DNA of 21,386 nt from a virus, in IMG/VR virus record IMGVR_UViG_3300030117_002228, positions 1-21,386 of that record; one strand, 5' to 3'. Position numbers and translations under genes: made by a program. Numbering within the stretch: position 1 is the stretch's first letter; each line of letters opens with the position of its first letter. Under the pieces are notes generated by a model. That model was not told where the DNA came from, made no database searches, and worked only from the letters and a program-made list of their open reading frames with translations. Below, in pieces: positions 189-17,595 of the stretch.

Positions 189-1847
189 ATGGAGAAAACT
201 AAATTTATTAAACACAAATTACCATGTCCTAAATGTGGTGGGTCTGACCCTGTCTCAATGAATGCTGATGGTTCAGCTTATTGTTTCAGCTGTTCGACTT
301 TTTTTACAGATTATGAAAATGCAAGTGAGGGTAAGATTTTGGAAACTACACCAAAAGCAACTAATACCTTTTTAGATTCTTATACCGGTATCTATGGTGA
401 GCTAACTGATAGAGGTATATCAGAAAAGACTGCTAAAAAGTTTGGAGTACGTATAGTTAAAGATGTCAATGGAAATGTAACACAACATATCTATCCGTAT
501 TTTAATGGCAATGAAATTAGTATAACTAAAACTAGGTTTGTTGCTGACAAGAATTTTTCGACTAAAGGAACATACGAAGGCACAGGATTATTTGGAGAGC
601 AACTTTGTAGAAATACTGGTGGTAAATTTTTAACTATTACTGAAGGTGAATGTGATGCTATGGCAGTTGATGAATTGTTTCAGGGCAAATGGGCAGTTGT
701 ATCTCTTAAACGAGGTGCTGCAGGTGCAGTTAAAGATATTAGAGAAAGCATAGAGTTTGTTGAAAGTTTTGATAATGTTGTTTTATGTTTTGATAATGAC
801 AAAGCAGGAAGACAAGCTTCACGAAATGTTGCAAGATTATTAAAACCCGGGAAGGTCAAGATAATGACTTTACCTAATGGTTACAAAGATGCCAACGACA
901 TGCTCAAACAAAAAGACTTCCAAGGTTTTACAAAAGCTTGGTGGGAATCAAAGACTTATACTCCATCAGGTATTATGGAACTATCCAGTAAAAAAAATGA
1001 CTGGTTAAAAAGAGAAGTCAAAGAAAGTATTGCTTATCCTTGGGAAGGTTTAAATAAAAAACTTTATGGTATGAGAAGAGGTGAGCTAGTTACTTTAACT
1101 GGAGGAACTGGACTCGGTAAGTCTTCAGTCACCAGAGAGCTTGAGCATTGGCTAATTAAAACTACTAAAGATAATGTTGGCATCATTGCTCTTGAAGAGA
1201 ACTGGGTAAGAACAGCAGATGGAATAATATCCATTGAAGCTAATGACAGATTGTATTTAAATGAAAAAAGAGATAGTTATACGCAAGAAGATTTAAATGC
1301 TTTATTTGACAAAGTAATAGAAAAGGATAGAGTATATATTCATTCACACCTTGGTGCTACGGACATTGATGAGATATTCGCCAAACTCCGTTATATGATT
1401 GTAGGTTGCGAGTGTAAGTGGGTTGTAGTTGACCACCTACATATGCTTGTTAATGTCCTAACCGAGGGTGATGAAAGACGAGGTATTGATAATCTAATGA
1501 ATAGACTACGTAGCTTAGTTGAAGAGACAAATGTAGGACTTATTCTAGTGTCTCATTTAAGACGTGCTACAGGCGACAGAGGGCACGAAAAAGGTGTAAC
1601 CGTATCGCTGAGTCATCTAAAAGGTTCTCAAGGCATAGCACAGCTTTCTGACTGTGTCATAGCATTAGAAAGAGACCAACAAGCTAAAGACCCTGTAGAA
1701 GCTAATACTACTAAAGTAAGAGTACTTAAATCTAGGTACACTGGAGATACTGGATTAGCTTGTGCTTTACAATACAACACTGAAACTGGTAGACTGTTTG
1801 AAGTAGATTCGGAGGACACATTCGATAATGAAGAACTTGATTTTTGA
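189..1847 (+). CDS. T7 gp4-like bifunctional DNA primase-helicase
   Basis: The protein primes lagging-strand synthesis and unwinds DNA at the phage fork. Order of domains in 552 aa: zinc-binding module with C13-x2-C16 and C32-x2-C35; TOPRIM primase fold with E152 in TEGECD and the acidic FDND at 201-204; then a RecA/DnaB-like helicase with Walker A GGTGLGKSS at 305-313 (K311), Walker B VVVD at 412-415, the VSH motif near 454 and the LKGSQGIAQLSD stretch at 477-488. The tail is acidic (DSEDTFDNEELDF), as in T7 gp4, where it docks the polymerase. The length is close to T7 gp4 (566 aa). GGAG at 180-183 precedes the ATG. It overlaps the polymerase gene by 20 nt, suggesting coupled translation. 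Confidence 0.96.
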   Translation: MEKTKFIKHKLPCPKCGGSDPVSMNADGSAYCFSCSTFFTDYENASEGKILETTPKATNTFLDSYTGIYGELTDRGISEKTAKKFGVRIVKDVNGNVTQHIYPYFNGNEISITKTRFVADKNFSTKGTYEGTGLFGEQLCRNTGGKFLTITEGECDAMAVDELFQGKWAVVSLKRGAAGAVKDIRESIEFVESFDNVVLCFDNDKAGRQASRNVARLLKPGKVKIMTLPNGYKDANDMLKQKDFQGFTKAWWESKTYTPSGIMELSSKKNDWLKREVKESIAYPWEGLNKKLYGMRRGELVTLTGGTGLGKSSVTRELEHWLIKTTKDNVGIIALEENWVRTADGIISIEANDRLYLNEKRDSYTQEDLNALFDKVIEKDRVYIHSHLGATDIDEIFAKLRYMIVGCECKWVVVDHLHMLVNVLTEGDERRGIDNLMNRLRSLVEETNVGLILVSHLRRATGDRGHEKGVTVSLSHLKGSQGIAQLSDCVIALERDQQAKDPVEANTTKVRVLKSRYTGDTGLACALQYNTETGRLFEVDSEDTFDNEELDF

Positions 1848-3558
1848 CATAGAAGCTGATGGACTTACACCTAGTAAAATATGGTGTATTGTAGCTAAAG
1901 ATTTAGACAGCAATACTGTTTATGAATATGGTCCTGATAAATTAGAAGAAGGTATAGAGCTTTTAAGAAACGCTGAAACTTTAGTTGGTCACAATATTAT
2001 TGGCTATGATATTCCAGTTATAGAAAAATTACACAGAGTTAAATTAACTAGTAATGTCATAGATACACTAGTGCTTTCCAGATTATTTCAACCTGTCAGA
2101 GAAAACGGACACAGTTTAAGAACTTGGGGCTATCGAATTGGAGTACACAAACAGGTTCAACCTGACGACTTTGATTGTTATACTCCAGAAATGTTAAGTT
2201 ATTGTAGGCAAGATGTTTTATTAAACGAACAAGTATACTTAAAACTTTTAGAAGAAGGCAGAGGATTTAATCAGGAGTCTATAGATTTAGAAACTAATGT
2301 TGCTAAAATTATGCATGAGCAAGAACAGACTGGTTTCTTATTTGATATAGAAAAAGCTAGTATGTTATTAGCTAAACTTAAAACTAGAATGGTTGAAGTA
2401 GAGGATGAAGTACAAAGAACATTTAAACCTAAATGGGTAGATGATAAACTTGTCACTCCATATATTAAAAAGAATGGTGAGTTATCTAAACGAGGTTTAA
2501 CTGATGAAGAGTATGATAACTGTATTAAGACTCAGAATGTAAAACCATTTATGAGAAAGAAACTACAAGAATTTAATTTAGGTAGTCGTAAACAAATCGG
2601 AGAATACTTAGTAGACTTTGGATGGAAACCTGAAAGATTTACACCTACTGGTCAACCTATTGTAGACGAAGGCACTCTAAAAAAGATAGACCACATTCAC
2701 GAAGCTCGGCTCATTGCCGAGTTTTTATTATTACAGAAACGTATTGCTCAGATATCTTCGTGGATAGATGAGTTACAAGGTGAACGTGTGCATGGTAAAG
2801 TAATACCTAACGGTACTATTACCGGTAGAATGACACACCGAAACCCCAACATGGCTCAAGTGCCTAGTGTTTCTAGTCCTTATGGAAAAGAATGTAGGTC
2901 TTGTTGGATTGTGCCTGAAGGATATAAATTAGTAGGTATTGATGCTAGTGGTCTTGAGTTAAGAATGTTAGCTCATTATATGGATGATAAAGATTATATC
3001 AATGAGATTTTACATGGTGATATTCATACTACTAATCAAAAACTAGCAGGACTAGATAGTAGAGACCAAGCTAAAACTTTTATCTATGCACTAATTTATG
3101 GTGCAGGAGATGCTAAACTTGGTAAGATTCTTAATGCTTCTAAGACCGAAGGCACAGAAATAAGAAATAGATTTTTAACTAACTTACCTGCTCTTGATAC
3201 TTTGACTGATAAAGTAAAAAAAGCTGCTCAACGAGGATATCTAAAAGGTTTAGATGGTCGTAAGTTATTTGTGAGAAGTGAGCATTCAGCTTTGAATACT
3301 TTACTTCAAGGTGGAGGTGCTATAGTTATGAAACAAGCTATGGATATACTTTACAATTTAATTAAGTTAAATACTTTCGATGCTAAATTTGTTGCCAACA
3401 TCCATGATGAATGGCAGATACAAGTTAGAGAAACTCAAGTTGAAGCGGTAGGTACAGTTGGTGTACAATCTATACATAAAGCGGGAGACCATTTTAATTT
3501 GAGATGTCCTCTAGACGGTGAATTTAAAGTCGGAGAAAGTTGGTATGAAACCCACTAA
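1828..3558 (+). CDS. T7-like family A DNA polymerase with 3'-5' exonuclease domain
   Basis: This is the replicative polymerase. Exonuclease motifs: D7/E9 in FDIEADG, GHNIIGYD with D61, and YCRQD with Y125/D129, so proofreading looks intact. Polymerase motifs: TGRMTHRNPN near 332-341; motif A GIDASGLELR with D372; motif B R412-x3-K416-x3-Y420-x3-Y424-G; motif C HDE at 526-528. Tyr420 aligns with E. coli Phe762 and T7 Tyr526. At 576 aa it is about 128 aa shorter than T7 gp5. The thumb region between about 200 and 290 looks too short to hold a full T7-style thioredoxin-binding loop (inference from length). GGAGG at 1811-1815 lies 12 nt before the ATG, inside the primase gene. The protein ends in His like T7 gp5. 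Confidence 0.96.
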   Translation: MKNLIFDIEADGLTPSKIWCIVAKDLDSNTVYEYGPDKLEEGIELLRNAETLVGHNIIGYDIPVIEKLHRVKLTSNVIDTLVLSRLFQPVRENGHSLRTWGYRIGVHKQVQPDDFDCYTPEMLSYCRQDVLLNEQVYLKLLEEGRGFNQESIDLETNVAKIMHEQEQTGFLFDIEKASMLLAKLKTRMVEVEDEVQRTFKPKWVDDKLVTPYIKKNGELSKRGLTDEEYDNCIKTQNVKPFMRKKLQEFNLGSRKQIGEYLVDFGWKPERFTPTGQPIVDEGTLKKIDHIHEARLIAEFLLLQKRIAQISSWIDELQGERVHGKVIPNGTITGRMTHRNPNMAQVPSVSSPYGKECRSCWIVPEGYKLVGIDASGLELRMLAHYMDDKDYINEILHGDIHTTNQKLAGLDSRDQAKTFIYALIYGAGDAKLGKILNASKTEGTEIRNRFLTNLPALDTLTDKVKKAAQRGYLKGLDGRKLFVRSEHSALNTLLQGGGAIVMKQAMDILYNLIKLNTFDAKFVANIHDEWQIQVRETQVEAVGTVGVQSIHKAGDHFNLRCPLDGEFKVGESWYETH

Positions 3559-3967
3559 AAAAGACAGAAAAAAGTTTGATATAGATTTGCAGTTTGGTTC
3601 TATTCGTGAAGATAAGATAGCAGATATGCTAACTAATAAAAAGATTGAAGTTAAATCTGAACGAGGTAAATGGATGGAGACTGGTAATATCTGTATAGAA
3701 TATCAATCTTATGGTAAACCTTCAGGTATTGAAGCAACTGAGGCAGACTTTTGGTTTCATAATCTTTGTATTGGTGATGAAATATTTTGCACGTTAGTAT
3801 TTGATGTACCTAAACTTAAAAAGCTAGTAAAAAAATTAGATTATTTAAAGTCAGTAAGTGGTGGCGACCACAATGCAAGTAGAATGTATCTTGTTAATAT
3901 ACAAAAATTATTTACTTCTGATGTATTTAAAACTTTTGAAGAGCTAGACAATGACAAACAAGAATAA
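3545..3967 (+). CDS. Small PD-(D/E)XK nuclease-like protein of unknown role
   Basis: The frame is open further upstream (ATG at 3518), but the ATG at 3545 is preferred because GGAG at 3532-3535 lies 9 nt before it. This gives 140 aa and a 14-nt overlap with the polymerase gene. With this start, E22, the E35-V-K37 pair and the following T-G-N-I-C-I-E-Y strand (E52) resemble the core of a PD-(D/E)XK nuclease fold, followed by a GIEATEADFW segment. No specific function is recognised. Its place between polymerase and exonuclease points to DNA metabolism. The fold assignment rests on motif spacing alone. Confidence 0.8.
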   Translation: MKPTKKDRKKFDIDLQFGSIREDKIADMLTNKKIEVKSERGKWMETGNICIEYQSYGKPSGIEATEADFWFHNLCIGDEIFCTLVFDVPKLKKLVKKLDYLKSVSGGDHNASRMYLVNIQKLFTSDVFKTFEELDNDKQE

Positions 3968-4787
3968 CGATAAACTTGACAATCTAGTAAAAGATAATTA
4001 TAATAAGTTCACATCTGAATCAGGACACTGGTACGACCAAGATGGTGAACCAATGTATACTATCATTGGTGCTAATGGCAAAGAAAGAAATACAACACTT
4101 AGAGATGCTAAATCTTTAGGTCTTGTACCGTCTGTTACTACTATTATTGGCATGATAGCCAAACCATCTTTAGAGAATTGGAAGATAGACCAAGCTTTAA
4201 AATCAGCATTATCTTTAGAAAGATATGAAGATGAATCACTTGAATCTTTTACTTATCGTTGTAAACAGGATTCTAAACAAATTAGTTTAAAAGCTGCTAG
4301 TGAAGGTACAAAGATTCATGCCATGATTGAAAGAGGATTTTTAGGAAAAAGAAAAACTAAACCTTACAATATTATTAAATCATGGTTAGATGAAAATTAT
4401 CCGAATGAAGAATGGATTGCAGAAGATTCTTTTTGTGCTGACTCTGGTTATGGTGGTAAGATAGACTTATACTCTAACTCTGGAATCTTTATAGACTTTA
4501 AAACAAAAGATAATTTAGAAGGCAAAGACCCTGCAAGATTAGTTTATGATGAACATGGTATGCAACTATCAGCTTATGCTCAAGGTTGTAACTTTGATGA
4601 TGTAGAACGAATATCTATTTTTGTTGATAGAAAAAATACAGATATTATTTTATGTCATGTTTGGGATAAAGAATCTCATTCAAAACACTTGGCTATGTTT
4701 AACAATATTTTAGAGTATTGGAAGTTAGTTAAAAATTATGACTCAACAGTGATAGCCCATGCCAAAAAGAAAACCAAGAAAACCTAG
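3951..4787 (+). CDS. RecB/Cas4-like PD-(D/E)XK exonuclease
   Basis: The 278-aa protein has the ordered motifs of the RecB/Cas4 nuclease family: GTKIHAMIERG with H123 and E127, GGKIDLY with D172, IDFKTK with D182 and K184, and the downstream Q205-x3-Y209 (HGMQLSAYAQG). It most likely does the job of T7 gp6 exonuclease: degrading host DNA to nucleotides and processing recombination or concatemer ends. It overlaps the preceding gene by 17 nt and the endonuclease I gene by 29 nt, so it is part of one operon. The motif set is clear; substrate polarity cannot be read from sequence. Confidence 0.88.
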   Translation: MTNKNNDKLDNLVKDNYNKFTSESGHWYDQDGEPMYTIIGANGKERNTTLRDAKSLGLVPSVTTIIGMIAKPSLENWKIDQALKSALSLERYEDESLESFTYRCKQDSKQISLKAASEGTKIHAMIERGFLGKRKTKPYNIIKSWLDENYPNEEWIAEDSFCADSGYGGKIDLYSNSGIFIDFKTKDNLEGKDPARLVYDEHGMQLSAYAQGCNFDDVERISIFVDRKNTDIILCHVWDKESHSKHLAMFNNILEYWKLVKNYDSTVIAHAKKKTKKT

Positions 4788-5205
4788 ACCTAAAAAAGAA
4801 TTAGGAGTTCCTAGAGGTTATGATAGTCACTGGGAATATGAATTACATCAAAGACTATTTGCCGATTGGCGACATCATTGGGAAACAATAGATTATGTTA
4901 TTGAACATAAATACGAACCTGATTTTGTTCGTAAATTTGATGATGGTAAAATTATTTTAATTGAAGCAAAAGGCAGGTTTTGGGATTTTGCAGAGTATAG
5001 TAAGTACGTGCATATTAAAAAAGCTTTACCGGATAATATTGAACTAGTCTTTTTCTTTCAAAAACCTTATGCTCCTATGCCGGGAGCTAAAGTAAGAAGA
5101 GACAAAACTAAAAGAACTCATGCTGAGTGGGCAGAGAAAAACGGATTTCGTTGGTTTAGCGAAACTAAATTACCCGAGGAGGATTGGATAAGTAATGAAA
5201 TATAA
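4759..5205 (+). CDS. T7 gp3-like endonuclease I (Holliday junction resolvase)
   Basis: The 148-aa protein matches the layout of T7 endonuclease I: a basic N-terminus, an early acidic helix (HWEYELHQ, E26/E28), YEPDF with D55, then LIEAKGRFW with E69 and K71, and a C-terminal half ending in EEDWI that resembles the T7 protein's end. D55, E69 and K71 correspond to T7 catalytic D55, E65 and K67. The enzyme resolves branched DNA before packaging and also attacks host DNA. No strong ribosome binding site is visible at the start, which lies inside the exonuclease gene; translation is probably coupled. Confidence 0.9.
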   Translation: MPKRKPRKPRPKKELGVPRGYDSHWEYELHQRLFADWRHHWETIDYVIEHKYEPDFVRKFDDGKIILIEAKGRFWDFAEYSKYVHIKKALPDNIELVFFFQKPYAPMPGAKVRRDKTKRTHAEWAEKNGFRWFSETKLPEEDWISNEI

Positions 5206-5434
5206 AACAATAGGCGACCTTGTTAATAATCCAGAACATTACAATCAAGGAAGCATAGAATGTATTGATGCTATTGAAGCAATGTTATCTAAAGAAGAAT
5301 TTATAGGTTACTTAAGAGGTAACTCACAAAAATATAGATGGCGATTTAGATACAAAAATGGCATACAAGATTTAAAGAAAGCAGAGTGGTATGAAAAAAG
5401 ATTGTTAAAACTTTTAGAGGCAAAAGATGAGTGA
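5195..5434 (+). CDS. DUF3310 family protein (T7 gp1.7-related domain)
   Basis: The 79-aa protein is essentially one DUF3310 domain: NPEHYNQG at 12-19, IECIDAIEAML, then FIGYLRGNSQKYRWRFRYK and a closing helix with KAEWYEKRL. The same domain occurs in T7 gp1.7, described as a nucleotide kinase, and in many phage nucleotide-metabolism neighbourhoods. This copy is domain-only, so enzymatic activity is not assured. GAGGAGG at 5176-5182 lies 12 nt upstream of the ATG. It overlaps both neighbours by about 10 nt and directly precedes nrdA, which fits a role in dNTP supply. Confidence 0.88.
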   Translation: MKYKTIGDLVNNPEHYNQGSIECIDAIEAMLSKEEFIGYLRGNSQKYRWRFRYKNGIQDLKKAEWYEKRLLKLLEAKDE

Positions 5435-7319
5435 AAAGAAAGGCGAAGTTCCTTATTTAGGAATAATAATTAATTATGATAAAGATAAAAAGTTAGACAA
5501 GTTTAGTATAGACACATTAAGAGATAGATATTTATGGCAAGAAGAAAGCTCTCCTCAAGAAGCTTTTGCTAGAGCTGCTGTTTATGCTAGTACCTTTCAA
5601 GAAGAAACAGATTATGCTATGGCACAGCGTATTTATAATTATGCCTCTGACCTTTGGTTTATGTTTTCTACTCCTATTTTATCTAATGGAGGAACGACAA
5701 GAGGATTACCTATTAGTTGTTTTTTAAATTATGTAGGTGATTCAATAGATGAATTAACTGACCACTTCAAAGAAAATGCCAGACTTGCTAGTTCTGGTGG
5801 AGGTATAGGAGGTTACTGGGGTGATGTTAGAAGTGACGGAACTTCTACAAGTAATGGTAGTAAGTCTACTGGCTCAATACCTTTTATGAAAGTTGTTGAT
5901 TCAGAAATGTTAGCATTCAATCAAGGAGTAACTAGACGTGGTAGCTATGCTGCTTATACTGACATTAGCCATCCAGAGATTGAAGAGTTTATGGTTATGC
6001 GAAAAGAATCCGGTGGTGATGTAAATAGAAAATGTTTGAATTTACACAATGGAGTTAATATCAACAATGCTTTTTTAAGAGCTGTAGAAACAGATGATGA
6101 TTGGCGACTAATAGACCCCAAGACTAAAGAAGCAGTAAAGATTATAAAAGCACGTGAGTTATGGTCTAAGATATTAGATGCTAGAGCAGAAACTGGTGAG
6201 CCTTATATAGTTAATCTTGATAACTGTAATGATGCTTTACCTCAAGGACAAAAAAATTTAGGACTAGAAATTAAACAAAGTAATTTATGTTCTGAGATTA
6301 CTTTACCAACTAACGAAGAAAGAACCGCTGTCTGTTGTTTGTCTAGTGTCAACTTAGAACACTTTGATGATTGGTCTGAAGATAAAAACTTTATTCAAGA
6401 TTTAATTACTATGTTAGATAATGTCTTAGAACACTTTATTGATAACGCAATAGACATGAATAATCTCGGAGGTTATAATGCAAACTATGAAAGATTTAAA
6501 AAACACATTAAAGAAGGCAAAGAAGGATTTACCAAAGCAGCTTACTCAGCTTATCGAGAAAGGTCGATTGGTCTTGGGGCAATGGGTTTTCATTCCTATC
6601 TTCAAGCACATAATATTCCCTTTGAAGGGATTTATGCAACGGGATTCAATCATAAAGCTTTTAAACATATTAAAAGTTCAGCTCTTAAAGCATCTAAAGA
6701 GATTGCCAAAGATAGGGGTGAAGCTCCTGATATCTCTGGTTCTACTCTTAGGAATGCTCATCTCCTCGCTGTTGCTCCTAATGCTAGTAGCAGTATTATA
6801 TGTGGTGGAACGAGTCCGTCAATAGAACCTATTAGAGCTAATGTTTTTACACATAAAACTTTATCTGGAAGTTATAAAGTAAAAAATAAAAATTTAGAAA
6901 AACTTATAAATAAAAAATTAGACGAACCAGCTAAACGAAAAAAACTCTGGCAACAGATTAGCGATAACCGAGGTTCAATTCAAAATATAAGATTATTTAC
7001 TAAAGAAGAAAAAGAATTATATAAAACTGCAGATGAAATAAATCAAATCTGGGTTGTCGAACATGCATATAAACGACAAGAATTTATATGTCAAAGTCAA
7101 AGTGTAAATTTATTTTTTATCCTACCTGATTCAAGTAAGAATCAAGAACAGCATAATGAATACTTACAGTATGTTAGTGATGTACATTGGTACGGTGCAA
7201 ATAAATTAAAATCACTTTACTATTTTAGGTCTGATGCTGCTAAAGCTGCAGAGAATGTTAATGTTAAAGTTCCACGAATAAAATTAGATGAAGTGGACTG
7301 TATTGCTTGTGAGGGATAA
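5427..7319 (+). CDS. nrdA: Ribonucleotide reductase class I large (alpha) subunit
   Basis: The protein reduces ribonucleotides to deoxyribonucleotides together with the NrdB encoded downstream. Visible catalytic features in 630 aa: C98 (LPISCF) and C303 (AVCCLS) as the redox pair, N286-x-C288-x-E290 (NLCSE) as the active-site triad with the thiyl Cys, the LKSLYYFRS tyrosine pair of the radical path near 588-596, and the C-terminal C625-x2-C628 that is re-reduced by thioredoxin or glutaredoxin. It is shorter than E. coli NrdA (761 aa) and begins almost directly in the catalytic barrel. I see no N-terminal ATP-cone, so dATP feedback inhibition is probably absent, as in many phage enzymes. Confidence 0.95.
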   Translation: MSEKKGEVPYLGIIINYDKDKKLDKFSIDTLRDRYLWQEESSPQEAFARAAVYASTFQEETDYAMAQRIYNYASDLWFMFSTPILSNGGTTRGLPISCFLNYVGDSIDELTDHFKENARLASSGGGIGGYWGDVRSDGTSTSNGSKSTGSIPFMKVVDSEMLAFNQGVTRRGSYAAYTDISHPEIEEFMVMRKESGGDVNRKCLNLHNGVNINNAFLRAVETDDDWRLIDPKTKEAVKIIKARELWSKILDARAETGEPYIVNLDNCNDALPQGQKNLGLEIKQSNLCSEITLPTNEERTAVCCLSSVNLEHFDDWSEDKNFIQDLITMLDNVLEHFIDNAIDMNNLGGYNANYERFKKHIKEGKEGFTKAAYSAYRERSIGLGAMGFHSYLQAHNIPFEGIYATGFNHKAFKHIKSSALKASKEIAKDRGEAPDISGSTLRNAHLLAVAPNASSSIICGGTSPSIEPIRANVFTHKTLSGSYKVKNKNLEKLINKKLDEPAKRKKLWQQISDNRGSIQNIRLFTKEEKELYKTADEINQIWVVEHAYKRQEFICQSQSVNLFFILPDSSKNQEQHNEYLQYVSDVHWYGANKLKSLYYFRSDAAKAAENVNVKVPRIKLDEVDCIACEG

Positions 7320-7754
7320 ATGAAAGATATATTATTTCCAATATTATTAATGATTGCCGGAACAATATCTATAATTGTTTTTGCTTATGAATCTACAGAT
7401 TATAAAGGTTATGATGATGTTCATACTTGTTTTGGCGAATGTTATGAAAAATATGTTATTAAATATGGCACACTAACAGAACAATTAGAAGCAAAAAGAG
7501 TCGCAATGCAAACAGAAACACCTGCTGATAAAGGTGCTAAGACGTATGTTAATTGTAATACTTGTCATGGCATGAAAGGAGAGGGAGGCATTGGACCAAA
7601 ACTTGTTGGCAGTACTTCTATTGTAGAAATGTTAACGCAATACAAAAATAAAGAAACTAGAGGTGAGCAGTCTGTTTTAATGTGGGGTCAAGCTGCTAAT
7701 TTATCTACTGAAGACATGGAAAACTTACAAGCTTACATAAATACTTTTAACTAA
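7320..7754 (+). CDS. Class I c-type cytochrome with N-terminal membrane anchor or signal peptide
   Basis: The 144-aa protein carries the covalent heme-binding motif C79-N-T-C82-H83, followed by GMKGEGGIGPKLVG. A C-terminal segment with M121 (candidate axial ligand) leads into ANLSTEDMENLQAYINTF, the ending typical of small monoheme class I cytochromes c. Residues 4-22 are a strong hydrophobic stretch; VFA at 20-22 would suit signal peptidase, or it stays as an anchor. Either way the heme domain would be periplasmic and need the host's cytochrome c maturation system. Residues 30-65 are an extra segment with C37-x3-C41. The ATG directly follows the nrdA TAA, with GAGGG at 7311-7315, and nrdB starts 13 nt after the stop, so the gene sits inside the reductase operon. 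Physiological role is unknown; electron transfer during infection is inference. Confidence 0.92.
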   Translation: MKDILFPILLMIAGTISIIVFAYESTDYKGYDDVHTCFGECYEKYVIKYGTLTEQLEAKRVAMQTETPADKGAKTYVNCNTCHGMKGEGGIGPKLVGSTSIVEMLTQYKNKETRGEQSVLMWGQAANLSTEDMENLQAYINTFN

Positions 7755-7767
7755 ACAAGGAAACTTA

Positions 7768-8760
7768 ATGACACTACTAACTACTAGAGAACACTACAAA
7801 CCATTTGATTATGCATGGATGTTTGAATACTATGATTTACAAAATAGAATGCATTGGCATCCAATGTCTGTACCCTTACATACTGACGTTAAAGATTGGA
7901 ATGAGAAATTAACAGACAACGAAAAGAACTTACTGGTACAAATTTTTAGATTGTTTACTCAGTCAGATGTAGATGTTGCTGGAGGTTATATAGATAAGTA
8001 TATGCCTATCTTTAAAAAACCAGAAGCAAGAATGATGATGTCTTCTTTTGCAAACATGGAAGCAATTCATCAACACGCTTACAGTTTACTATTAGATACT
8101 GTAGGTATGCCTGAAATAGAATACAAAGCTTTTGCTGAGTATGAAGAAATGGCAGATAAGCATGATTATGTTGGCAATTTTAAACCTCTTAAATCTGATA
8201 AAAAAACGATAGCTAAAACTTTAGCAGTCTATTCAGCATTTACCGAAGGATTACAATTATTTAGTAGCTTTGCAATCTTGATGAACTTTCAAAGGTTTGG
8301 CAAGATGAAAGGCATGTGTCAGATAGTAGCTTACTCTATTAAAGATGAAAGCTTACATGTCGAAGCAATGACAAAGTTATTTAGAGAATTTATAAAAGAG
8401 AATTTAGATATTTGGACAGACGACTTTAAAAAAGAAATCTATCAAATATGTAGAGAAATGGTTAAACTTGAAGAGAAATTTTTAGACTTAGTGTTTGAAA
8501 TGGGGAACTTAGAAGGTTTAACTAAAGAGGAGATGTATGCCTACAATAAATATATTGCAGACAGACGACTATTGCAGTTGGGGCTGAAACCAAACTTTAA
8601 ACAGAAAGATAATCCCCTAACTTGGTTGGATGATGTGCTAGGTGTAGAACATCAAAACTTTTTTGAAGGTAGAGCTACTTCATATCAAAAAGCAGGTCTT
8701 AGAGGTGATTATGGAAAATTAACCTTTACAGGATTTAACAATGAAGACGAAACGAAATGA
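7768..8760 (+). CDS. nrdB: Ribonucleotide reductase class I small (beta) subunit
   Basis: This is the radical-generating diiron subunit. The ligands are visible with spacing equal to E. coli NrdB: D67, E98, H101, E160, E194 and H197 (E. coli D84, E115, H118, E204, E238, H241). The radical Tyr is present at Y105, seven residues after E98, matching E. coli Y122, so this is an oxygen-dependent class Ia enzyme and not a Tyr-less variant. The length is 330 aa. AAGGAAA at 7759-7765 precedes the ATG. Partner of the NrdA encoded upstream, separated from it by the cytochrome gene. Confidence 0.95.
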   Translation: MTLLTTREHYKPFDYAWMFEYYDLQNRMHWHPMSVPLHTDVKDWNEKLTDNEKNLLVQIFRLFTQSDVDVAGGYIDKYMPIFKKPEARMMMSSFANMEAIHQHAYSLLLDTVGMPEIEYKAFAEYEEMADKHDYVGNFKPLKSDKKTIAKTLAVYSAFTEGLQLFSSFAILMNFQRFGKMKGMCQIVAYSIKDESLHVEAMTKLFREFIKENLDIWTDDFKKEIYQICREMVKLEEKFLDLVFEMGNLEGLTKEEMYAYNKYIADRRLLQLGLKPNFKQKDNPLTWLDDVLGVEHQNFFEGRATSYQKAGLRGDYGKLTFTGFNNEDETK

Positions 8761-9516: not shown

Positions 9517-9764
9517 TTATTATTCTCCGGTTCAAAGTGTAAACTTCTATCAATAATTTTATTAAGAGAATCTAATAAGACCTCTGGAATATCATGTAGT
9601 TCACTTAATTGATTAGGATTTAACTGTATCATGTATAAATCCATTAAATCTTCGTATATCTTTCTAAACTCTTCTCGTTTTACCCAAGGTACGTTATGAC
9701 GAGTACGAGCTTTACAATCTATTTTGTAGGCTTCGTCTAAATCTTTTTCTCTATATAGTATCAT
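9513..9764 (-). CDS. Small protein of unknown function between internal virion protein and holin-like gene
   Basis: The 83-aa protein is charged and probably helical, with no membrane segment and no motif I recognise. ATGA overlaps at both ends (with the 1386-aa gene before it and the holin-like gene after it) tie it to the late operon by translational coupling; no clear Shine-Dalgarno is present. A lysis accessory or small virion component are both possible. Confidence 0.72.
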   Translation of the reverse strand: MILYREKDLDEAYKIDCKARTRHNVPWVKREEFRKIYEDLMDLYMIQLNPNQLSELHDIPEVLLDSLNKIIDRSLHFEPENNK

Positions 9765-12700
9765 TTATTAAATCTTTCATCCCACATTTTCTCTTTCATT
9801 GGTCTGTCTTTTTCTTTACCTGCCCAGTGATACTTTAACCATGCTTCTTTTGAAGTTAATTTACCAGAAGCTAAATCATCTAATGGTATAAGACCTTCAT
9901 TTTTATCAGCATAAAAAATATCATTTTGTAATTCTTCAGGAAGTTTTGAAAAATCTACATCTTTTTCATTTAATAAAATTTGATATTCGTCAGGTATTTT
10001 TAAATTATTTTTTTTATGAAACTCTTTATATCTAGTTATTGCAGTTTCATTAGCACCACTGCCTTTTGAATATTTCATTTCATATTGATATTTCCCTCTT
10101 CCCGGACCATCATCTACAAACTTACCATCTCTTTTAATTTTTTGAATTGCAGCAGCATTGTTTCTAGATTCTATTTCAGCAACGTCATTTGAATGTTCAA
10201 CTAATGCATCAGCTACAGCTTGTCCTCTAATTTTTTTAATAGCTTCTAAAACTGAACCACCATTACTCATAGTTAATCTACCACCATGGTAAGCATTTTT
10301 TCTACGTTGTAATGCTCCTAAAAACTTGCCTTCTTCACTCAAACCCACTCTAGTTTTTTCAGGTTGAGCATTAGGACCAGCTTCAATATCATAAGGCATA
10401 CCTGTCATTTTATTTATTCTTTTCTCTGGTTCTTGCGGAGCATTAGGTACGTCAACTTCACCACCTATTCTATATTTAACTCTACCAGAAGAAGATTCAT
10501 TTTGACCTTCTATAATGTCATTTAACTCATCATCTAATTTTTTTGCTAAATCATTAACCTTTGCTTTAGTGCCTTCTCCTCCTACAAAATCATAAACTTG
10601 ACTATAAGGTAAGTTTCTAGTTAAAGCTTGTCCAAAACCTAGTCTGTATTCAATCGTATCAAATACATCTCCAAGGAAAGGTCCACTAAAACCTCTAGCT
10701 ATTGAAGCAGGTACACCTGAACCACCTTTAGTTTTTGCATCATAAGCTCTCATTCCATAACTCATAGGTCCTGCTAATCCAGTTCTTTCAAAAGCATCCA
10801 CTAATCTTTCACCATCAGTTTGATTATTCCATCTTTCACCATTGCTTCTTAAGTAGTTTCCTTGTAAGGCTACAGCTGTCATTAATAATGAAGCACTTAA
10901 AGTTTTTATGCCTGATTGAATAGGATAGTTTTTCATTTCATTCACCATTCTTTTAAGAACAATATTAGAAAAAGCAGTAGGATAACTAGCAAATTGAAGT
11001 AGTAGTTTACCCCCACCAGATGAAAATAATAATGGTTTATTAGCTGCCCCTATTGAGGGGTTAAGAATAATTTCATTAGTAAATCTTCCTGCAGCAGGTA
11101 AGTATTGTTCTTTATAGAATTTAGATTGTTGAGCTTTAGTATTATTAAAAACTAATGTATCTTTATCTAAAGAGCTACGATACCAGTTCATAGCATCAGC
11201 TGGTTCAATTCCTAATTCTTTAAGTTGACCTTCCATGTATTCTTTTCGATTCATGCCTAAATCTCTTACTCGACCACTTGATAACTTTTTAACACCTATC
11301 TCATGCTCATATAATTTTTTAGCATTTTTCCTAATTAAAGTTTTACCTGTTGTAAATGCAGCACCTTGCACAGCTCTAGTCCATTGAGTTAATAGTGTTG
11401 TTTTAAAGAAAGTATTTTGAACATTTCTAGCAAATTTATTAGTAAGAATATCTCCACTTGCAAGTCTATCAAAACCATCTAAGGCAGATTGTTCTAAAGC
11501 TAAATTAGCTTCGTAAAGTTCTTGCCAGTATTCGTCATCTATATCACGAAATCTTTGTTTGCCACCAACACGACCTATAATAGGAGTATTTTCTGGAATG
11601 TATGATAATGCTCCTTTAGTTAATTGGTCAAAGTTTTTTATAGTTTCTTTTGTTAGACCTTTTGCTATTTCTTTAAATACTTTTGGGCTGTCTACTAAGT
11701 CTACTCTTGAGAGCAATATTAAAGGTTCTGTTACACTAGATAAAGTAGCTAATGGTAAATGAGCCATTTGCTGACTTAGACGAACATATTCAGACACGTT
11801 TCTTCCAAATGACTCAGCACCTCTTGAATATGTACCTGTCAAATCAGAAGGTCTAGCAATACCAGTTGTAAGGGTGTGTAAATTAACTAATCTTTCTAAT
11901 GCATTTGTAATTTCTCTTTCACTAGCACCGGCTGCTCGTAATTCTAATTTTATTTTATTTAAAAATTTATCTTCAAAATCACCTAAAGTTTTACCAAATA
12001 ATTTAGTTCTGGCATAAGTTGAAGAAACATTAGTAATATAATCTCCTAAGACTTCTGTTACATCAGTGCTCATAAAAGGTCTTAGCTCATCTTCAGGAAT
12101 ATTATTAAATATTCTGTGTTGTAAAAAAGATTTTCCAGAACCAACACTAGGAGTAGTTTTAAGTTGGAAAGGAGTGTATTTTAAATCTAACATGTCCTCA
12201 ATAATTTTATCGGCTTTTAAACTTTGAGCTTCTTCTATTAAACTATCCTTACTTGCATCTTTACCTAAATTTCTTCTGGCTGTGTCCATAAAGTCAATAC
12301 CAAATATATCCATGTCTTTACCTAATGTATCTGCTGGAATACCTACCTCTTCTTTTCCAGCTGCATTAATATATTTAGTTAAATACTTATCAGAAACTTT
12401 ATTATCAGGATTAGCATATCCATATTTTATTATTAACTCTTTAAATTCTGGTCTTAATTTTTCAATAGATGAATGCTCATACATTCTTGGAAAATAATTT
12501 TTAACTTCTCTAGAAGAAGTAAATAGTCCAACATCTTCTCCTTCTTTAAATGCATCTTTTAAAAGATTTTTAATACCTACTATTTTCTTACCAGTTTTTT
12601 TATCAATACCACCAGTAAATCCAAATCTAACATTGTCTGGAATTTCATATAGATTATTTTTATAAGTATAACTAGTTGCCTCTCCTCCAGTTTGAATTAA

Positions 12701-13921
12701 TTCTAATAAAGCAGCATTATCTTTTGCAGTAATTTTTGGATTAAAAAAACCAACTCTTCCTATAACATTAAGTGCAACATCAAGATTTTTACGATAATTA
12801 CCATAGTATTTACTGTTTTCTTCATGATAGGTTCGAGGACCAACTTTAGGTTTATTTTTACCTAATAAAGTTCTGTCTGAATCATATCGATAAAGTTGTA
12901 AAAGATTTTGTAAAGTCGATGATGCTTTTGCTTTAGTTCTAAATTCTGTGGTTGATTTACCAAAAAATCTACTGATAAAAAAGTCTGCACTTTCTCCTGC
13001 TTTAGCTGATAAACTAGAAAGATTGTAAGAGTTTTCAGTATTGTCTTCTACTATTTTTTGTCGTGAATTTCTTTCTGTAGTTTTTATAATTTTATCTTCA
13101 TTTAAGTATTTATACTGCTGTTTAAAAAATCTATAACCATCATACATACCAGTAAGTTTACCAATTCCTCCTCCAGCTACAGCTCCAATACCAGTAGCTA
13201 ATCCTAGTTCTTTAGCATCTATGTTATTTCTATTTAATAAATCAATGTCAATGTCTTGAGTAAAATAATTATGTGCACCATTCCAAGTAGCACCTTCAGC
13301 AGCAGTAAAAATAGCAGGTCTTGTTCCGGCTTTAGCAGCTTGTGAAAAAGCATATCTTTTAGCTCCTTGTTTGATAGCTTCTGTGGCTGCTTGTTTAGCA
13401 GCTAAAGTAGCTCCTCCAGTCCAAGGAGCTAGAGCTAAAAGAGTAAAAGGGTCGCCTACTGTATCAATAGCTACATCTTTAAACATTGTTAATTTTTCTT
13501 TAGCCCCATCTAATTTTGTATTTGCAAATTTATTTCTTAATCTATTAAAGGCATCTATTTCATCTTTAGTAATGTCATTTGTCTTATAAGCTGTGGTCAT
13601 AGCTGACACCAAACTATGTTCAGAGTCTCTTAAAGTTTCTGAAATTCTTTCACCTTTTTGGTCTAATACTTTAGCAACGATATCCCAGTCTTTTAAAACT
13701 TCTTCATCGTTTTCAAACTCAGCAATACTTTTAAACTCTTGTTTAGCTTTTTTACTTGGAGAAGCGTAAAGACTTGCAAAAGAATTTTTTTCTGGAGTAT
13801 TAGAAAAGATATTACCTATGTTTATTTTTTCTGATTTATTTAAATCAAAAGAGGGAGTTTTGTCTAATTCTTCTTTTTGATTAGAAGTATTAAAGACACT
13901 TTTAAAATCTATATCTGTCAT
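9761..13921 (-). CDS. Giant internal virion protein with C-terminal muralytic-like domain (T7 gp16 role)
   Basis: At 1386 aa this is close to T7 gp16 (about 1318 aa) and lies at the end of the internal-protein block. T7 gp16 forms the channel for DNA entry in the ejectosome. The N-terminus (MTDIDFKSVF) is followed by long helical, Ala- and Gly-containing stretches. A region around 970-1030 (LLQFASYPTAF and a hydrophobic helix after it) could insert into a membrane. The C-terminal part, from about 1230, has an IESRNN segment (E1251) and GPGRGKYQYE at 1272-1281. This resembles lytic transglycosylase/lysozyme-like motifs where a catalytic Glu precedes a G-x-G-x-Y-Q element. In T7 gp16 the transglycosylase is N-terminal. 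The start has no Shine-Dalgarno: the 28 nt before it are only A and T. Confidence 0.85.
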   Translation of the reverse strand: MTDIDFKSVFNTSNQKEELDKTPSFDLNKSEKINIGNIFSNTPEKNSFASLYASPSKKAKQEFKSIAEFENDEEVLKDWDIVAKVLDQKGERISETLRDSEHSLVSAMTTAYKTNDITKDEIDAFNRLRNKFANTKLDGAKEKLTMFKDVAIDTVGDPFTLLALAPWTGGATLAAKQAATEAIKQGAKRYAFSQAAKAGTRPAIFTAAEGATWNGAHNYFTQDIDIDLLNRNNIDAKELGLATGIGAVAGGGIGKLTGMYDGYRFFKQQYKYLNEDKIIKTTERNSRQKIVEDNTENSYNLSSLSAKAGESADFFISRFFGKSTTEFRTKAKASSTLQNLLQLYRYDSDRTLLGKNKPKVGPRTYHEENSKYYGNYRKNLDVALNVIGRVGFFNPKITAKDNAALLELIQTGGEATSYTYKNNLYEIPDNVRFGFTGGIDKKTGKKIVGIKNLLKDAFKEGEDVGLFTSSREVKNYFPRMYEHSSIEKLRPEFKELIIKYGYANPDNKVSDKYLTKYINAAGKEEVGIPADTLGKDMDIFGIDFMDTARRNLGKDASKDSLIEEAQSLKADKIIEDMLDLKYTPFQLKTTPSVGSGKSFLQHRIFNNIPEDELRPFMSTDVTEVLGDYITNVSSTYARTKLFGKTLGDFEDKFLNKIKLELRAAGASEREITNALERLVNLHTLTTGIARPSDLTGTYSRGAESFGRNVSEYVRLSQQMAHLPLATLSSVTEPLILLSRVDLVDSPKVFKEIAKGLTKETIKNFDQLTKGALSYIPENTPIIGRVGGKQRFRDIDDEYWQELYEANLALEQSALDGFDRLASGDILTNKFARNVQNTFFKTTLLTQWTRAVQGAAFTTGKTLIRKNAKKLYEHEIGVKKLSSGRVRDLGMNRKEYMEGQLKELGIEPADAMNWYRSSLDKDTLVFNNTKAQQSKFYKEQYLPAAGRFTNEIILNPSIGAANKPLLFSSGGGKLLLQFASYPTAFSNIVLKRMVNEMKNYPIQSGIKTLSASLLMTAVALQGNYLRSNGERWNNQTDGERLVDAFERTGLAGPMSYGMRAYDAKTKGGSGVPASIARGFSGPFLGDVFDTIEYRLGFGQALTRNLPYSQVYDFVGGEGTKAKVNDLAKKLDDELNDIIEGQNESSSGRVKYRIGGEVDVPNAPQEPEKRINKMTGMPYDIEAGPNAQPEKTRVGLSEEGKFLGALQRRKNAYHGGRLTMSNGGSVLEAIKKIRGQAVADALVEHSNDVAEIESRNNAAAIQKIKRDGKFVDDGPGRGKYQYEMKYSKGSGANETAITRYKEFHKKNNLKIPDEYQILLNEKDVDFSKLPEELQNDIFYADKNEGLIPLDDLASGKLTSKEAWLKYHWAGKEKDRPMKEKMWDERFNK

Positions 13922-16596: not shown

Positions 16597-17595
16597 TTAC
16601 GTATATTGTATTGGTGCTACATTAATGCCACTCATTAAAGCTACTTGCGTATTTCTAGCATAATCTAAAGAGCCATTTCCGTAAGCTAAATTATTTAACA
16701 TTGTGCCATATATTCCTGATAAGTCAGAACGACTACTTGAACTATATCTTTCTATATATTGACCAACATCTACCATTTTTCTAGTATTAGTAGAAAATGA
16801 AGTTGCTCGACCACTACCACTACGATAGTATTCTTCTTCTTCTCTATCTCCCATAAGAGTATTCATCATTAAACCACCAACAACCGCTTGTCCTCCTTTA
16901 CTAACCGCACTAACTGACCATTTTCCAAGCTTACTCATAAAAGTTTTTGGTGCTGCCCCTCCAACAGAAGTAGTAGCAGCTGTAGGTACACTTGAAACAC
17001 TTACAGTACCCGTAACAGCTTTTCCAGCAGCAGTAGTACCAGTTGTAGTTCCTATAACAGTTGGACTAGCAGCTGGGGCTATTGGAGTAGTTATAGAGCC
17101 ACCAAACAATGCTCCTCCAGTTAAATTAGCACCAGCAGCAGTAACACCTGATGCACTACCTAAAGCCACAGGTGTTCCACCTAATGCAGTAGTTAAACCC
17201 GGACCAGCGAGTGCAGTTGCTCCGACCCCACCAGCACCAAAGAGTCCTGCAGTAGTTCCAGCAGCTCCTGTAGCTCCAAATAAACCAGCTTTTAAAGTTG
17301 CACCAAAGGCAGCAGGACTAGTAAAAGAAGCAGCAAGAGCACTTCCAAAAGTTGCACCACCTCCAGCAGCTCCAGCCACAGCAGCAGCCCCAACTCCAGT
17401 GGCTATTAATGCTCCAATCACAACTAGCCGCACAAACTTGTTTTTTAAAAGTTTTTTACCAACCTTGACAACTCCCTTAACTACTTTTTTAACGACTTTG
17501 CCAACACCTTTAACAACTTTTTTAACAACTTTGCCGACACCTTTAACTACTTTTTTGATGCCTCCGGTTATTTTTTTAACTATTTTCTTTAAGAA
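16597..17595 (-). CDS. Gly/Ala-rich virion protein with cationic hendecad N-terminus (start codon unresolved)
   Basis: A GTG at 17433 would give 278 aa, but the same frame is clearly coding further upstream to at least 17589. It holds four 11-residue Lys/Val repeats and lies just after a perfect AGGAGG at 17607-17602. No ATG, GTG or TTG occurs in that frame near the site; 17595 is used here as the first codon 6 nt after AGGAGG. After the repeats come KKLLKNKF and a hydrophobic segment (VRLVVIGALIATG), then about 130 residues extremely rich in Gly, Ala and Thr. The C-terminal quarter is more ordinary, with Arg/Ser/Tyr. Size and place suggest a T7 gp14-like internal protein that enters the cell envelope on ejection; this is positional inference. 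Confidence 0.7.
   Translation of the reverse strand, partial: FLKKIVKKITGGIKKVVKGVGKVVKKVVKGVGKVVKKVVKGVVKVGKKLLKNKFVRLVVIGALIATGVGAAAVAGAAGGGATFGSALAASFTSPAAFGATLKAGLFGATGAAGTTAGLFGAGGVGATALAGPGLTTALGGTPVALGSASGVTAAGANLTGGALFGGSITTPIAPAASPTVIGTTTGTTAAGKAVTGTVSVSSVPTAATTSVGGAAPKTFMSKLGKWSVSAVSKGGQAVVGGLMMNTLMGDREEEEYYRSGSGRATSFSTNTRKMVDVGQYIERYSSSSRSDLSGIYGTMLNNLAYGNGSLDYARNTQVALMSGINVAPIQYT
17455..17586 (-). repeat. Four tandem 33-nt (11-residue) Lys/Val amphipathic repeats
   Basis: In coding order the units are 17586-17554 (KIVKKITGGIK), 17553-17521 (KVVKGVGKVVK), 17520-17488 (KVVKGVGKVVK) and 17487-17455 (KVVKGVVKVGK). The middle two are 30/33 identical at nucleotide level and all three differences are synonymous, which shows selection on the peptide. 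Eleven-residue periodicity suits an 11/3 amphipathic helix lying on a membrane. Confidence 0.85.

Follow-up and report, generated by a model that had tools for sequence, protein, structure and literature searches.

Most of what is known about how phages control electron flow concerns cyanophages and photosynthesis. The cyanophage genes petE and PTOX form a mobile cassette (PMC3037559), and phage soxD has been reported from two viral contigs, each missing at least one cytochrome motif (PMC8190135). A marine viral fraction contained reads of cbb3 oxidase subunit I that may stem from heterotroph-infecting phages (PMC3474794), and cytochrome carriers were not observed in oceanic nitrogen-cycle viruses (PMC8115048). 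No article found in open-access PMC describes a carrier cytochrome c encoded by a phage, and a sequence-only reading of the DNA analyzed here likewise named no described example.

Here we examine a candidate for such a gene, found in a 21,386-nucleotide stretch of viral DNA (the window), together with its relatives in phages and bacteria. As with the plastocyanin/PTOX pair of cyanophages, the genes comprise a phage-borne small electron carrier and, in some phages, a diiron quinol oxidase, and they are sporadic and mobile (PMC3037559). The cyanophage cassette, however, is built on a copper protein and on photosynthesis in cyanobacteria, whereas the cytochrome is a heme protein that would act in the respiration of presumed heterotrophs. 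A phage-encoded c-type cytochrome domain is also found in SoxD and other sulfur auxiliary genes of phages, but SoxD is an enzyme subunit that works with SoxC (PMC8190135). Newly found in this work are an alternative oxidase (AOX) or tightly coupled small membrane proteins in some of the cytochrome phages, and a heme-less peptide homologous to one module of the cytochrome in sibling phages.

A predicted membrane-anchored cytochrome c between nrdA and nrdB

The cytochrome gene (7320-7754, plus strand, 144 amino acids) begins with an ATG at 7320 directly after the TAA stop of nrdA (7317-7319), and its stop codon, ending at 7754, lies 13 nt before the nrdB ATG at 7768, confirming the placement given in the sequence-only reading. 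It is flanked by a T7-like replication set and a class Ia ribonucleotide reductase (RNR), all on the plus strand: a T7-like DNA primase/helicase (189-1847; phrog_239, E 8e-177), a family A DNA polymerase (1828-3558; PF00476, phrog_17; 52% identical to its nearest isolate, Pelagibacter phage HTVC115P), an exonuclease (3951-4787; phrog_298), a T7 gp3-like endonuclease I (4759-5205; PF05367, phrog_945), and the large and small reductase subunits NrdA (5427-7319) and NrdB (7768-8760), each recognized by Pfam, PHROG and NCBIfam models. A divergent structural module follows, including a large internal virion/endolysin-like protein (9761-13921, minus strand; phrog_7348, phrog_6958). The locus is thus the viral, T7-like replication operon that the earlier reading had taken it to be. 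HTVC115P, the nearest isolate by nrdA as well (61%), infects SAR11, and its nrdA and nrdB overlap without a cytochrome between them. In base composition the cytochrome gene is like its neighbors, with a GC3 of 0.18 in both nrdA and the cytochrome. Elsewhere in the window, a Gly/Ala-rich ORF of 278 amino acids (16597-17433, minus strand) has a raised GC of 0.47 against about 0.33 and no PHROG match.

Based on profile and motif evidence, we predict that the ORF encodes a membrane-anchored, monoheme, class I c-type cytochrome. Two Pfam models match residues 69-142 above their cut-offs, Cytochrome_CBB3 (PF13442; 1.6e-6, 28.7 bits against 27) and Cytochrom_C (PF00034; 7.7e-6, 27.6 bits against 21.3), so the class assignment does not fail for want of a profile match. 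A PHROGs search gave no match for the ORF, and no cytochrome match was found among 50,697 phage records. We examined conservation in an alignment of 95 full-length relatives, 59 from phages and 36 cellular. The heme-binding motif CNTCH (C79-N-T-C82-H83; 7554-7568, plus strand) and the candidate axial ligand Met121 (7680-7682, plus strand) bear the expected marks, with C79, C82, H83 and Met121 unchanged in 95 of 95 rows.

Two features had been overlooked in the sequence-only reading. Residues 1-25 (7320-7394, plus strand) form a predicted membrane helix, with a mean hydropathy of 2.64 over residues 4-22, which we take as a signal anchor whose orientation is inferred. Behind it lies an N-terminal module with the motif HTCFGECY (H35-Y42; 7422-7445, plus strand), in which C37, G39 and C41 are present in 59/59 phage and 36/36 cellular full-length rows; H35 is common among the relatives, not invariant.

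The predicted structure resembles cytochrome c554

An AlphaFold model built from a 46-row alignment reached a mean pLDDT of 88.3 and replaced an earlier model from 26 rows (pLDDT 70). The model, which holds no heme, places a membrane helix at residues 2-25 and helices at 40-49 and 52-64 ahead of a cytochrome c domain with the all-helical cytochrome c fold, in which Met121 sits in a helix spanning 118-126. Its best match in the PDB is cytochrome c554 of Vibrio parahaemolyticus (2zzs; TM 0.84 by target, rmsd 1.3 Å), followed by other c552 and c-type cytochromes; a structure search found no viral protein model matching at E <= 0.001. Together with the Pfam matches and the invariant ligands, the c554-like model upholds the class I call made from the letters.

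The fold is common to the monoheme cytochromes c554/c552 (2zzs, 1cno, 4o1w; TM 0.79-0.84 by target, rmsd 1.3-1.8 Å), and the heme motif is likewise found in bacterial monoheme c554/c552 and in cytochrome c4 domains. Solved c554, c552 and c4 chains, however, lack the membrane anchor and HxCxGECY module, which together put some 65 residues ahead of the heme domain in the phage protein. In the cy/CycM cytochromes of Alphaproteobacteria, an N-terminal anchor and a linker precede one class I heme domain. By hydropathy and the model helix at 2-25 the phage cytochrome resembles this layout of anchor plus single heme domain, but it has no NCBIfam cy/CycM match, its GECY module is distinctive, and its Foldseek match to the CcoH/cy chain of R. 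capsulatus (6xkw_p) is weak (E 0.29). We also considered and rejected more specialized assignments. Despite the name of the top Pfam model, the protein is not subunit III of a cbb3 oxidase (CcoP/FixP), having one CxxCH in 144 amino acids and no FixP match; the SoxX sulfur-oxidation model of NCBIfam scored 18.8 bits against a cut-off of 61; and matches to other NCBIfam cytochromes, PedF and MoxG among them, all fell far under their cut-offs.

Relatives of the cytochrome recur across phage types

The gene, which the sequence-only reading had called unusual, is no isolated case: all 94 IMG/VR phage contigs whose neighborhoods we inspected carry the ORF. Three scans of IMG/VR returned 35, 110 and 221 stretches coding for cytochrome relatives, the counts of the later, larger scans possibly including ordinary cytochromes. 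The order nrdA-cytochrome-nrdB recurs in independently assembled contigs, with cytochromes 100, 92 and 73% identical to that of the window. The gene is found mostly among replication and nucleotide genes, with nrdA directly upstream in 42 of the 94 contigs. Neighbors in the other contigs, several of them labeled by sequence inspection rather than by HMM, include DnaB helicase, peroxiredoxin/SbcD, SbcC/glutaredoxin, an HD-domain-like gene, and polA together with a small membrane gene, among others.

Five cytochrome contigs carry gp23, the major capsid gene of T4-type phages, whereas the group of the window is T7-like, indicating that the cytochrome gene crosses phage types. In the phylogeny, phage cytochromes form one large clade (support 100/99) and a second group nearer to other cellular lines. 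Several independent captures from cells are conceivable, as the maximum-likelihood tree requires two changes between phage and cell labels, but the AU test does not reject one origin of the phage genes (p 0.18). Identities within single contigs point to exchange: compared with the window, L010 has an nrdA of 94% and an nrdB of 98% identity and a cytochrome of just 70%, and L006 an nrdA of 73% and a cytochrome of 78%, mismatches showing that the cytochrome moves apart from its neighbors. The cytochrome thus recurs in unrelated phages and is mobile independently of nrdA and nrdB. It is under purifying selection, with a median dN/dS of 0.29 over 1164 pairs and a lower value in the heme half (0.17) than in the N-terminal half (0.49).

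Probable origin in marine Gammaproteobacteria

Full-length cellular homologs, with anchor and CxGECY-type module, occur in Halieaceae and related marine Gammaproteobacteria. In the family of genome G002, 73 of 140 genomes passed E 1e-30, most with full-length matches, and 21 of 294 genomes in the order of G001 have relatives; in samples at class (369 genomes) and phylum (398 genomes) level, full-length matches were confined to the query's own genome. The Halieaceae-type family (L037-L047, L121-L159) has the anchor, GECY module, CxxCH and Met all as in the phage protein, but is only 33-43% identical to it over aligned full-length rows, and its genes are chromosomal and stand alone. The genomes inspected show no partner oxidoreductase beside the cellular gene, which is either solitary or close to tusDCB-like genes; this lack of a conserved partner enzyme nearby fits a general electron carrier. 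AOX occurs in 27 of the 140 genomes of the G002 family.

Within the genomes sampled, among which a 16S probe recognized none of SAR11, the full-length relatives come from Halieaceae-related genomes, and the phage genes accordingly seem to derive from hosts in this section of marine Gammaproteobacteria. The closest cellular relatives found are gammaproteobacterial, even though HTVC115P, the nearest isolate, has a SAR11 host. The presence of the cytochrome gene in viral contigs, its recurrence, its cellular homologs and the selection acting on it mark it as a putative phage auxiliary metabolic gene, presumably expressed in infection and of benefit to the phage.

The nrdA-nrdB junction and a heme-less sibling peptide

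Of 57 contigs from close relatives with both nrdA and nrdB, 7 carry the cytochrome between these genes and 18 have the two joined (4 or 13 nt apart); other small genes fill the junction in the rest. The nrdA end, GAGGGATAA-ATG, runs into the cytochrome in the window and, where nrdA and nrdB are joined at 4 nt, directly into nrdB, as seen by comparing the window with the empty junctions of L222, L227, L241 and L264. This segment provides the context for ribosome binding to the cytochrome gene and, where the site is empty, to nrdB. A second phage type, L090-L093 (nrdA 57%), has a distinct cytochrome (48%) at the same junction, L093 being cut at its end. At the junction of L223, L230, L231, L235 and others, a Zn-ribbon-like ORF of 49-53 amino acids (MKCWHC...CPNC) alternates with an ORF of 69 amino acids.

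In several of L245-L256 and in L273, the slot is filled by an ORF of 49-50 amino acids with a membrane helix and the motif Y.DNHLCI.[ED]CWE but no heme domain (L245 3037-3186; L246 6114-6263; L249 6110-6262; L254 6116-6268; L256 6264-6416). The peptide is encoded by 17 viral contigs and, in those inspected, lies between nrdA and nrdB with its own ribosome-binding site. Its profile aligned to the N-terminal module of the cytochrome with 97% probability in hhalign (score 50.7), whereas none of 200 column shuffles that preserved the helix scored above 21.0. The module can therefore stand alone, which suggests that it does something without electron transfer, and the peptide offers a way to separate docking from electron transfer.

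Alternative oxidase and small membrane proteins in cytochrome phages

We tested the window and 24 other records, all cytochrome-bearing, for AOX (PF01786) and found it above cut-off in 9 of the 25, with E values down to 6e-72. Every complete copy inspected has the motifs LET, NERMHL, E[EQ]EA and RADExxH, leaving the iron-binding motifs intact. In L060 (5279-5848) the AOX gene overlaps the cytochrome gene by one base, and in L019 (768-1370) and L021, L033 and L075 (8724-9326 in each) it lies two genes upstream; further copies are found in L076 (12016-12606), L078 (3333-3905), L081 (12050-12622), L089 (12183-12755) and the L084 record (G009; 23352-23906). Several contigs with both genes also carry the T4-type capsid gene. 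The PF01786 search found no AOX in the window phage or its 43-46 kb relatives.

Small membrane proteins with a single helix, belonging to two families (clusters 15 and 23; 63-96 amino acids), abut the cytochrome in many contigs, their start and stop codons overlapping or adjoining those of the cytochrome gene (L011 1027-1314; L004 2917-3138; L024 6524-6730 and 7161-7421; L060 4639-4848). The 21 kb of the window contain neither AOX nor these small coupled proteins. An assignment of the small proteins to known oxidase subunits was rejected, as searches of Pfam, NCBIfam and the PDB gave nothing credible, and one of them was absent from the 140 Halieaceae-type genomes searched.

Proposed role and alternative explanations

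The protein is probably a membrane-anchored, His83/Met121-ligated cytochrome c with Halieaceae-type relatives, carried as an auxiliary gene and passing electrons from the bc1 complex to a terminal oxidase so that respiration is sustained. Its expression would coincide with that of the replication and nucleotide genes, early or midway through infection. From what is generally known of c-type cytochromes, the uncleaved N-terminal helix would place the heme domain in the periplasm, where host Ccm machinery would attach the heme. Electrons could then be carried from bc1 to a cbb3 or aa3 terminal oxidase of the host, and respiration and ATP supply might be kept up, or raised, during phage DNA synthesis; in the related phages, AOX would give electrons another way out of the quinol pool. 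An electron carrier feeding host terminal oxidases, in parallel to the cyanophage plastocyanin/PTOX cassette, appears to be the best reading, against which stand that no genomic neighbor names the electron partners, that the window phage and its 43-46 kb relatives show no AOX, and that the heme-less sibling peptide hints at an activity of the N-terminal module apart from electron transfer. Together our results suggest that marine phages with the cytochrome, some with a second respiratory enzyme, manipulate the respiration of infected cells. The earlier proposal that the protein may sustain or redirect host respiration is backed by the AOX co-encoded in other cytochrome phages. A wider scheme, possible but doubtful, is a host-respiration kit made up of a membrane module that would dock on a host respiratory complex and also occurs alone, the fused cytochrome c, tightly coupled small membrane proteins and AOX, with subsets varying among phages and often housed in the nrdA-nrdB slot.

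Other explanations place the activity elsewhere. The activity could reside in the N-terminal membrane module (TM helix plus HxCxGECY), with the heme domain optional: by binding to a membrane protein or a respiratory protein of the host, the phage product would serve at the membrane as an adaptor, as an inhibitor or in exclusion. The homologous stand-alone peptide of 17 viral contigs, its hhalign score far above the shuffles and the invariant C37 and C41 favor such a role, but the heme domain is the more constrained part by dN/dS, its ligands never vary, and both parts are present in the cellular relatives of the set, leading us to consider it unlikely. Wasteful redirection of electrons has a similarly small claim, and we rate it as improbable: the cytochrome would outcompete host carriers or, with AOX, uncouple electron flow from proton pumping, keeping NAD+ and quinone oxidized for fast carbon and nucleotide metabolism. 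AOX is a non-pumping oxidase, and its co-occurrence in 9 of 25 records speaks for this possibility; most cytochrome phages, the window phage included, nevertheless show no AOX, and a cytochrome c downstream of the bc1 complex would alone support coupled respiration.

The linkage to RNR had been left open by the sequence-only reading as functional or merely positional, and the positional part is what mostly held. A direct service to the enzyme, by supplying electrons to NrdB or controlling oxygen for it, would be suggested by the nrdA-cytochrome-nrdB order in the window and, with a distinct cytochrome, in L090-L092. However, RNR is cytoplasmic, whereas a membrane anchor together with a c-type heme implies that the domain lies in the periplasm; the cytochrome is placed elsewhere in more than half of the contigs, and it is missing from 50 of the 57 close relatives with both nrdA and nrdB. 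Because the junction takes varied cargo, the link is mostly positional, and we regard a functional one as very improbable. That bacterial DNA entered at 7320-7754 through contamination or a chimeric assembly is scarcely credible and was rejected: the bacterial-type fold is all that speaks for it, while the same gene order recurs in independently assembled contigs and metagenomes, the GC3 is phage-like and the cytochrome groups in a well-supported clade of phage sequences only (100/99).

If the favored carrier role is correct, a respiratory carrier in T7-like and T4-like phages of presumed heterotrophs, sometimes with AOX, would extend phage control of electron flow to respiration, with a bearing on the oxygen use and carbon turnover of infected cells. 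The cytochrome provides a defined protein for asking whether phages boost or bypass host respiration.

Further observations on phage AOX

A similarity search with the AOX of L075 gave a single find among other deposited phages, an AOX homolog (61% to L075) in Phage C48C1 (Kyanoviridae; OQ984149.1 26279-26830, L213 4037-4588) that is annotated as hypothetical and adjoins clamp and clamp-loader genes. In the large phages L021 (5372-7902) and L033 (5314-7907), a TctA-like permease, identified by a weak Pfam match to its first 60 residues, lies upstream of AOX and the cytochrome and is followed by a TctC-looking gene.
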